IMG/VR virus record: IMGVR_UViG_3300025652_000249
Span: 1-34,282 of that record
DNA from: a virus
Reading direction: 5' to 3' (one strand)
DNA: 34,282 nt
Position 1 is the first letter of the stretch, and each line of letters starts with the position of its first letter. Shown here one piece after another: positions 3,488 to 5,145 of this stretch. Both the position numbers and the translations under genes were made by a program. Under the pieces are notes generated by a model. That model ran no database searches. It was not told where the DNA came from and was given only the letters and a program-made list of their open reading frames with translations.

Positions 3488-3778
3488 ATGGCAAATCTAA
3501 AGATCAATGATTTCATCCTAATGATTGACGATCTGGCTGAGGTTCTGCTTGAGCGTGACAGTGTCGAGCTGAGGTATGAGTACGATGCCAAGTTCGATAG
3601 CTGGCACTTGGACGCGGAAGGCCAGAGCGATTACGAGGACTACACCGAAGAGGCCGAGGCTATCCTTCGGAAGATTGGCATAGGTCGCGAAGATGACGAG
3701 CCCTTGTTCGGATCCGATGTTGACCTTGATCCCAACGTTGACCCCGCAGAAGGGACCATGGGTTGGGAGGGATCTTAA
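3488..3778 (+). CDS. hypothetical acidic phage protein (96 aa)
   Basis: 96 residues, very acidic, particularly in the second half (DYEDYTEEAEAILRK, DVDLDPNVDPAEG). No domain recognised. Its stop overlaps the ATG of the next gene (TAATG), so the two are probably translated together. Highly acidic small phage proteins are sometimes DNA mimics that block host nucleases, but there is no specific evidence here. Confidence 0.6.
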   Translation: MANLKINDFILMIDDLAEVLLERDSVELRYEYDAKFDSWHLDAEGQSDYEDYTEEAEAILRKIGIGREDDEPLFGSDVDLDPNVDPAEGTMGWEGS

Positions 3779-3969
3779 TGTTCGAGCAAGAAAGAAAAGC
3801 AATTGTGGGTCTCGCTATGGTTGTGATCATAGCGATCGCCTTCCTCTGGGTATCCAACGAAGACTACAAGCACGAAGTCGAGATGGAAAAGCAATACCGC
3901 GAGATGGTATGCGCGGGTCACTGGCCGGACTACTGGCAAACCAATCCAAACTGTAAGGGAGAATCATGA
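3778..3969 (+). CDS. small single-pass membrane protein
   Basis: 63 residues starting at the ATG that overlaps the preceding TAA; an upstream in-frame TTG is less likely. A short charged N-terminus (MFEQERK) is followed by one hydrophobic segment (residues about 8-25, AIVGLAMVVIIAIAFLWV), then a charged helix and a C-terminal part with two cysteines (VCAGHWPDYWQTNPNC). If the N-terminus stays in the cytoplasm, the tail would be periplasmic and could form a disulfide. It resembles small phage membrane proteins with a C-x-G-x-WPDY tail that I have seen without a known role. A spanin-like or superinfection-exclusion role is possible but unsupported. It overlaps the methyltransferase gene start by 4 bases. 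Confidence 0.6.
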   Translation: MFEQERKAIVGLAMVVIIAIAFLWVSNEDYKHEVEMEKQYREMVCAGHWPDYWQTNPNCKGES

Positions 3970-4811
3970 AAGTCCTTGACCTCTTCTCCGGCATCGGTGG
4001 TTTCTCTCTCGGCCTTGAGTGGGCTGGGATGGAGACCATCGCGATGTGCGAGAAGGATAAATTTTGCAGACAAGTTCTGGCCAAGCACTGGCCGGACATC
4101 ACCATTCACGAAGACATAAGGGATTTAGATGGGAAAGATTACGAAGGATCAATTGACGTTGTTTGCGGAGGATTCCCCTGCCAACCATTCTCAGTTGCAG
4201 GCAAGCAACTTGGAAAGGCAGATGACCGTCACCTCTGGCCTGAAATGTTACGAGTCATCAAAGAGTCAGCTCCCACTTGGGTCATTGGCGAAAACGTTTC
4301 TGGGTTCGTCCGGATGGCACTCGACGATGTGTGCTCTGACTTGGAAGGTGAAGGTTACCGAGTCCAATCGTTTGTTATTCCGGCTTGTGCCGTCGAAGCC
4401 CACCACCGCAGAGACAGATGCTGGGTTGTGGCCTACTCCGACGAGAATGACCGGCGGCGAAGAGATAGCACCATCTCACAGGAACGGCACACATGGATGG
4501 AACATCGGAGCGGCGGTCAAGGACAGTCTCTCGGCGGATCCGATTCGGATGTGGCCGACCCCGAGAGCGAGCGAGTACAAAGACTGCGGTCCTGTGGGCT
4601 CGAAGAGTCACACGCATATGGACCAGCGCTCGTACCTCTGTGCGAAGGCGAAGGATTCGGATCGACCTACTGGGAAACTGAGCCCGATGTGGACCGAGTG
4701 GTTGATGGGGTTCCCAATCGGGTGGACCGAATTAAATCCCTCGGAAACGCGGTAGTCCCTCAGCTTGTACAAAGAATAGGAGAAATGATCTATGCCGAGC
4801 ACCAAAGATGA
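3966..4811 (+). CDS. dcm: DNA (cytosine-5-)-methyltransferase
   Basis: 281 residues. Conserved C5-methyltransferase motifs are present in order: motif I DLFSGIGGFSLGLE (5-18, S-adenosylmethionine binding), motif IV GGFPCQPFS with catalytic C72, motif VI GEN (108-110), motif VIII-like HHRRDR (146-151), and motif X SLGNAVVPQLVQRIG (258 onward). The target-recognition part between about 155 and 245 is short, typical of compact phage enzymes. It should methylate cytosine within a short site, probably protecting phage DNA from host restriction; no cognate endonuclease gene is visible. The start is the ATG overlapping the previous stop. Almost all of the gene from base 4129 to 4755 is also open in a second frame that encodes a family-like protein (next entry). 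Confidence 0.92.
   Translation: MKVLDLFSGIGGFSLGLEWAGMETIAMCEKDKFCRQVLAKHWPDITIHEDIRDLDGKDYEGSIDVVCGGFPCQPFSVAGKQLGKADDRHLWPEMLRVIKESAPTWVIGENVSGFVRMALDDVCSDLEGEGYRVQSFVIPACAVEAHHRRDRCWVVAYSDENDRRRRDSTISQERHTWMEHRSGGQGQSLGGSDSDVADPESERVQRLRSCGLEESHAYGPALVPLCEGEGFGSTYWETEPDVDRVVDGVPNRVDRIKSLGNAVVPQLVQRIGEMIYAEHQR
4129..4755 (+). CDS. ORF nested out of frame inside the methyltransferase gene (208 aa)
   Basis: This ORF lies entirely within the methyltransferase gene in the +1 frame. Its product does not look like a random shadow: it has LTLFAEDSPA (9-18), two WPTP motifs (101-104 and 142-146, MWPTPRASEY) and a C-terminal WLMGFPIGWTEL (191-202). I recognise this combination from proteins found next to, or annotated with, phage and bacterial cytosine methyltransferases; their function is unknown to me. 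The bases for MWPTPRASEY encode VADPESER in the methyltransferase frame, a stretch also common in those enzymes. Its ATG has an AGGG-type ribosome binding site about 7 bases upstream. It could be a true overprinted gene or only an imprint of conserved methyltransferase codons. Confidence 0.5.
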   Translation: MGKITKDQLTLFAEDSPANHSQLQASNLERQMTVTSGLKCYESSKSQLPLGSLAKTFLGSSGWHSTMCALTWKVKVTESNRLLFRLVPSKPTTAETDAGLWPTPTRMTGGEEIAPSHRNGTHGWNIGAAVKDSLSADPIRMWPTPRASEYKDCGPVGSKSHTHMDQRSYLCAKAKDSDRPTGKLSPMWTEWLMGFPIGWTELNPSETR

Positions 4812-5145
4812 CACCATCCTTGACGCGGATGACCCCGCTGCGAGCCTGGAAATTGTTGAAAAAATCGAGAAGCGAGGTGGGTTTCGGCCCAACTCCTCCT
4901 TCATGCACAAGGAAAAGAAAGCTCGCAAGTACGATTGCGATTGGTGTGGCATTGAGTTCGCAAGCACACACGTTCGCAACACCAAAAGATTTTGCAGTGA
5001 TGCTCATCGGTGGAAGGAATACAACCTTGCCCGTAGTTTCGCCGCGAAGAAGCGTCTGACTGACAAAGCTCGCAAGAGTGGAAGCTTCAGACCACCATCA
5101 AGGGACGCAAGTGCCTTACTACTCAAAGCAAGAAAAGGAAAATAA
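4792..5145 (+). CDS. small zinc-finger-like protein (117 aa)
   Basis: 117 residues. A treble-clef or FCS-like zinc-binding pattern is visible: YDCDWCGIEF (C49 and C52) and RFCSDAHRWKEY (a cysteine about 17 residues later followed by a histidine at +4). The rest is basic, notably the last 40 residues (KKRLTDKARKSGSFR, LLLKARKGK), consistent with nucleic-acid binding. It overlaps the end of the methyltransferase gene by 20 bases. The exact family was not identified. It may act on DNA together with neighbours, but this is inference from charge and the zinc motif. Confidence 0.65.
   Translation: MPSTKDDTILDADDPAASLEIVEKIEKRGGFRPNSSFMHKEKKARKYDCDWCGIEFASTHVRNTKRFCSDAHRWKEYNLARSFAAKKRLTDKARKSGSFRPPSRDASALLLKARKGK

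Follow-up and report, generated by a model that had tools for sequence, protein, structure and literature searches.

An open reading frame nested within a phage cytosine methyltransferase gene as the probable second subunit of the same enzyme

The window analysed here is a stretch of 34,282 nucleotides of viral DNA in which a gene for a C5-cytosine methyltransferase (alpha) contains, wholly inside it and in the +1 frame, a second long open reading frame (beta). We conclude that this locus encodes one two-subunit C5-cytosine methyltransferase in overlapping frames, a reading to which we give a probability of a little under nine in ten. As judged by sequence comparison, we showed that both frames are selected, that the motifs of the enzyme are divided between them, that the inner frame has start signals, that the arrangement is conserved and that motif X has been interchanged between the frames. 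We infer separate translation of beta, a heterodimer, its activity, its target and an anti-restriction role. The original prediction had suggested an overprinted methyltransferase partner, and this idea is supported by the conservation of both frames across phages and bacteria and by synonymous constraint found only over beta. The features of the locus are the following.

3966-4811, + strand: alpha, C5-cytosine methyltransferase large subunit, 281 aa, motifs I-VIII and X (PF00145, PHROG 363, AlphaFold, Foldseek)
3978-4001, + strand: alpha motif I, DLFSGIGG
4118-4122, + strand: Shine-Dalgarno-like AAGGG, 6 nt before the beta ATG, within the alpha codons for DIRDL
4126-4131, + strand: TAG stop, then the beta ATG start (same or similar TAG/TAA-ATG in close relatives)
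4129-4755, + strand: beta, putative small subunit, nested +1-frame ORF, 208 aa, with N module, target-recognition region and motif IX (openness, PHROG 1008, synonymous constraint)
4147-4422, + strand: beta N module, overprinted on alpha motifs IV-VIII (synonymous ratio 1.60, CI 1.52-1.67; conserved in the beta alignment)
4173-4193, + strand: alpha motif IV, FPCQPFS with the catalytic C72 (P71, C72, Q73, P74 and S76 invariant in the alignment)
4407-4430, + strand: alpha motif VIII, RRDRCWVV
4423-4671, + strand: beta target-recognition region, two WPTP modules (beta-frame constraint; modules common to enzymes with divergent catalytic domains)
4434-4670, + strand: alpha linker at the position of the target-recognition domain, unconstrained in the alpha frame (substitution rates 0.327 vs 0.088, pLDDT below 50)
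4671-4763, + strand: alpha pre-X and motif X segment, WETEPDVDRVVDGVPNRVDRIKSLGNAVVPQ, its first two thirds dual-coded with beta motif IX
4672-4737, + strand: beta motif IX, GKLSPMWTEWLMGFPIGWTELN (alignment to the in-frame motif IX of L288; synonymous ratio 2.73)

Alpha matches PF00145 (E 4.9e-47) and PHROG 363 (E 5.6e-81), and it has the motifs that define a C5-cytosine DNA methyltransferase, i.e. I, IV (PCQ), VI (ENV) and VIII, as seen from PF00145, from invariant columns and from the Foldseek alignment to M.HhaI. The C72 in GGFPCQPFS and the terminal SLGNAVVPQ, which the original prediction had read in this frame, are indeed there. Motif IX is absent from alpha, and the enzyme has motifs IX and X both, X in alpha and IX in the beta frame only. 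In the AlphaFold model of alpha, residues 1-160 mostly have pLDDT above 90, residues 175-260 fall below 50 and a C-terminal helix follows at 264-280, and the Foldseek alignment to M.HhaI and M.HaeIII covers about 163 columns. On this model alpha would be the M.HhaI large domain plus a gap, with a linker that is apparently disordered. An upstream ORF (3763-3969) overlaps the start of alpha as ATGA, and a downstream one (4792-5145), with a weak zinc-finger/HNH-like match, begins within its last 20 nt. Since both neighbours overlap its ends, alpha is part of an operon of tightly overlapping genes.

Read in the +1 frame, positions 4129-4755 give an open run of 208 codons with, as first described, the peptides LTLFAEDSPA and WLMGFPIGWTEL and a pair of WPTP motifs; MWPTPRASE in one frame and VADPESER in the other come from the same bases. 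The second protein family that the original prediction recognised is real: beta residues 7-204 match PHROG 1008 (E 2.9e-29), a profile labelled 'DNA methyltransferase' that spans nearly all of beta. We found no Pfam or NCBIfam match for beta, no PDB match by sequence and no meaningful fold match. Its C-terminal LSPMWTEWLMGFPIGWTEL is motif IX: it can be matched position for position to LTPRECERLQGFPDDYTD, the motif IX that the single-chain enzyme L288 has in frame, and its WLMGFP fits the canonical motif. Between the N module and motif IX, beta has a variable region with the WPTP modules. Some enzymes share stretches of this region at 65-88% identity while the identity of their catalytic domains is below 55% (down to 32% among the listed pairs having such shared stretches), as expected of exchangeable recognition modules. 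Modelled alone, beta gives a low-confidence structure (pLDDT 60), a weak prediction that would fit, rather than prove, a chain folding on its partner.

The decisive evidence for beta is its synonymous constraint, its motif content and its topology, not its openness. We compared codon agreement at conserved alpha residues with the expectation from codon usage in 860 divergent pairs (30-60% identical), in which recombination could inflate codon identity, taking intervals by bootstrap over loci. The observed/expected ratio is 1.04 (1.00-1.09) before beta, at alpha codons 2-52, and 1.05 (0.97-1.11) after it, at codons 260-278. Inside beta it reaches 1.60 (1.52-1.67) over motifs IV-VIII (codons 56-153), where part of the signal may be baseline given a ratio of 1.21 over the same motifs in single-chain relatives, whose own +1 frame is also open. 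It is 1.81 (1.80-2.00) over the recognition region (codons 154-234) and 2.73 (2.52-2.89) over beta motif IX (codons 235-256). Synonymous-site conservation, which the original prediction proposed to look for, runs from alpha codon 55 to 258, the limits of beta. We then took a close clade of ten loci and compared, per opportunity, substitutions silent in alpha and changing beta with those changing alpha and silent in beta. The rates are 0.234 vs 0.019 before beta, 0.143 vs 0.083 over motifs IV-VIII, 0.088 vs 0.327 over the recognition region, 0.053 vs 0.154 over motif IX and 0.353 vs 0.066 over motif X. Hence, motifs IV-VIII are held in both frames, the recognition region in beta only and motif X in alpha only. 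Selection moves to the beta frame exactly where the recognition domain of alpha would be expected. When pairs were scored with BLOSUM against alpha-synonymous shuffles, beta gave a strongly positive result, yet the +2 control was positive too, by shared ancestry, and we therefore preferred the comparison of codon identity, which has its controls within the gene. It is, in our view, almost certain that beta is a protein under selection.

Signals for a start inside alpha recur among relatives. A Shine-Dalgarno core stands ahead of the first possible beta start in 36 of 44 nested relatives, and ahead of a start in the first 12 codons of beta in 39 of the 44, a figure that allows a choice of start; among 1639 control internal starts, 16% have such a core. 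Alternatively, ribosomes might leave alpha after motif VIII by programmed frameshifting and enter the beta frame, making a fusion of motifs I-VIII with the recognition region and motif IX while alpha is made in parallel. The recognition region and IX do come directly after VIII in beta, and three loci (L164, L172 and L175) have I-VIII and IX in one ORF. Yet, a simple fusion would be without motif X, and the N module, start codon and Shine-Dalgarno site of beta are conserved where a fusion would make no use of them. We regard frameshifting as very improbable.

Two subunits from two frames are also what the distribution of the motifs suggests. Topologies were called with separate profiles for the catalytic part, the beta N module, IX and X. 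The topology of the window, with the catalytic part and X in one ORF and the N module and IX in the +1 ORF (type A), is found in 229 loci, and one in which alpha is the catalytic part only and the N module, recognition region, IX and X are all in the +1 ORF (type B) in 34, counts that include some loci fetched twice from one contig. The gene pair had been supposed to be rare, which these 263 classifiable loci do not bear out. Every one of them has the beta N module lying across the catalytic core in the +1 frame, with 160 nt or more in common. Stand-alone homologues of beta, which the original prediction had suggested seeking, were not found among 80 bacterial loci retrieved with beta patterns, among 30 viral loci found with beta or in the type B scan. 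A tree was made from 97 catalytic domains, 82 A and 15 B, after dereplication at 80% identity; the label needs 9 changes on it, at least 5 of them forced by well supported branches. Such switching of motif X between ORFs is as expected if both chains form one enzyme. One might instead think of beta as a real but separate protein, e.g. an anti-restriction or regulatory factor, and no methyltransferase subunit, given that it is always nested and that its N module is without match to known folds. This is at odds with the movement of motif X between the two ORFs and with a motif IX and a recognition-like region that are present in beta and missing from alpha; we find it about as hard to credit as frameshifting.

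The nested arrangement is spread over hosts and sources from Bacillota, Pseudomonadota, Bacteroidota, Acidobacteriota, Chloroflexota, Actinomycetota and others. A tblastn search of GenBank phages with beta gave 85 records, 71 of them with at least 80% coverage and all below 60% identity, and in the records opened the match sits within a methyltransferase gene. There were four matches among 299 sampled species genomes from the phylum of a Virgibacillus genome. In the type B loci (L180:2793-4092, L207, L241, L225 and 30 others) alpha stops after VIII and X follows IX in the beta frame. Four loci (L164, L172, L175 and L177) are frame-swapped: IX shares an ORF with I-VIII, or X shares one with the beta N module, and what remains lies in a third frame; they may reflect decay, sequence errors or another topology.

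Openness of the second frame deserves separate treatment. The original prediction would have been abandoned had homologues often carried stops there, and the +1 frame is open in all 56 non-redundant relatives. Among 80 alpha relatives from IMG/VR, the +1 run has about 180-290 codons and starts at about one place, and the +2 frame is full of stops. In L042, which has a stop in its alpha frame, the +1 run is interrupted under strict reading. We permuted synonymous codons within each alpha gene (500 shuffles) and counted stops in the +1 region. The shuffles bring 4.4 stops on average to the window gene (P = 0.006) and 2.5 to 10 to the 56 non-redundant homologues, with P at most 0.046 each and usually 0/500, in a test that gives P<=0.01 in 4% of 192 unrelated neighbouring genes. 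Openness is nevertheless insufficient as sole proof, because long +1 ORFs occur in some single-chain relatives too. In the L289 group, where IX and X are in the frame of I-VIII, a long +1 run (median 165 codons) covers motifs III-VIII. Among L289 and its relatives L293-L366, which are canonical phage C5-methyltransferases, 42 of 44 genes are without a stop in the +1 region, with 21 stops in total vs 162 expected. The +1 ORF of this group ends in a conserved peptide, SLSDILEENVPEKYFLS, at which the codon ratio is 2.49, and there is no codon excess at IX and X (1.04 and 0.96). The split family thus shares its open frame, and some of its IV-VIII signal, with these enzymes, and what identifies beta as a subunit is the signal over the recognition region and motif IX, the start signals and the relocation of motifs.

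One might speculate that phage C5-methyltransferases have generally overprinted their catalytic motifs in the +1 frame since a time before the split arose. The +1 frame would then give split enzymes their recognition subunit, single-chain Firmicutes-phage enzymes would still encode an uncharacterised second protein there, and motif IX, motif X and recognition modules would move between frames. We hold this as a tentative and rather doubtful idea. A shared origin of the +1 ORF in the split and single-chain families was considered and found weak, with a codon ratio of 1.22 at alpha 60-90 only and about 1 elsewhere. The original prediction had also allowed that the second family might be an artefact, the +1 ORF arising from conserved methyltransferase codons and codon bias with its product under no selection; conserved alpha codons do force some similarity in the beta N module and long +1 runs do occur in single-chain relatives, but this reading is already contradicted by synonymous constraint limited to beta and acting on beta alone over the recognition region, by the Shine-Dalgarno enrichment and by the calibrated shuffles. 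We prefer a methyltransferase partner because both frames are conserved, the constraint is found only at beta, and the recognition region and motif IX are absent from alpha.

In C5-methyltransferases, the large domain holds most conserved motifs and the small domain the variable region and motif IX, and M.AquI and M.EcoHK31I are natural two-polypeptide enzymes (PMC3404938). Splitting between motif VIII and the recognition domain is well tolerated (PMC5944983). In M.EcoHK31I the large chain has I-VIII and X and the small chain IX, the recognition domain being predicted in alpha, and in M.AquI the large chain has I-VIII and the small chain the distal recognition region, IX and X (PMC3404938). 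Compared by description, the window resembles M.EcoHK31I (with M.EaeI) in having I-VIII and X in the large chain and IX in the small one. The beta gene of M.EcoHK31I is nested in its alpha gene in another frame, as is that of the window. They differ in that only IX is placed in the M.EcoHK31I beta, whereas selection in the window puts the recognition region in beta. The present family argues, by analogy, that the recognition domain of M.EcoHK31I may be in beta, and its placing in alpha is called into question. In the 34 type B loci, as in M.AquI, the ORF for the small chain has both IX and X. The two genes of AquI share only a short overlap, whereas beta is fully nested in the window, which also keeps X in alpha. 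Alpha corresponds to the large domain of M.HhaI and M.HaeIII and beta supplies equivalents of their small domain, but theirs is one chain in one frame and the window has two chains in two frames. The basic arrangement thus has one biochemical precedent, M.EcoHK31I; what appears to be new is how widely it occurs, the location of the recognition region in beta and the mobility of motif X.

In the literature on the nested family in phages we found only annotation. Paenibacillus larvae phages have nested methyltransferase gene pairs with a homologous beta (Lily gp62/gp63; Bloom BLOOM_56/57), but there the second ORF is annotated without function or as a second methyltransferase (Lily gp63 is the 'g62 internal gene'), and we found no treatment of it as a subunit. 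Some mycobacteriophage methylases contain an out-of-frame HNH endonuclease, the ShiLan domain (PMC11855218). This is likewise a second protein out of frame within a phage methylase, yet it is a mobile, inserted homing endonuclease, whereas beta would be a conserved part of the enzyme, with no insertion.

We propose that the alpha frame gives the large domain, which would bind AdoMet and carry out catalysis (I-VIII, Cys72), with a long disordered linker and a motif X that packs back against this domain. The beta frame, from its own Shine-Dalgarno site and ATG inside alpha, would give the small domain, i.e. the N module, a target-recognition region built of modules, and motif IX. Alpha and beta would pair around DNA, beta picking the sequence and alpha flipping and methylating the cytosine. 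We recognised no restriction enzyme among the neighbouring genes examined, and since this is a phage gene, the most likely role is to mark phage DNA against host restriction.

Long same-strand overprinted pairs whose products serve one enzyme are rarely documented. With frames that apparently encode halves of one enzyme and recur in hundreds of phage and bacterial loci from many phyla, this locus offers a rich natural system for the study of dual coding. If our reading is true, many genes annotated as complete methyltransferases, e.g. gp83 of mycobacteriophage Rhynn, encode the catalytic half only. Cloning such genes alone would lose beta and give an inactive enzyme, and target prediction would need the other frame. 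Rhynn gp83 (L118) and a gene of Salmonella phage S9-5 (L292) are annotated as single DNA methylases, and their +1 frames have WPT and WLMGFP/WFMGWP. In one chromosome assembly, the Roseovarius MAG OX638333.1, the alpha/beta pair occurs five times, and all copies have the same match scores (L145-L149). In the Paenibacillus polymyxa plasmid pAP1 (L115:1296-2786) the +1 frame has two LNPxWVECLMGFPL motif IX segments with stops between them, which suggests a tandem duplication of the end of beta.
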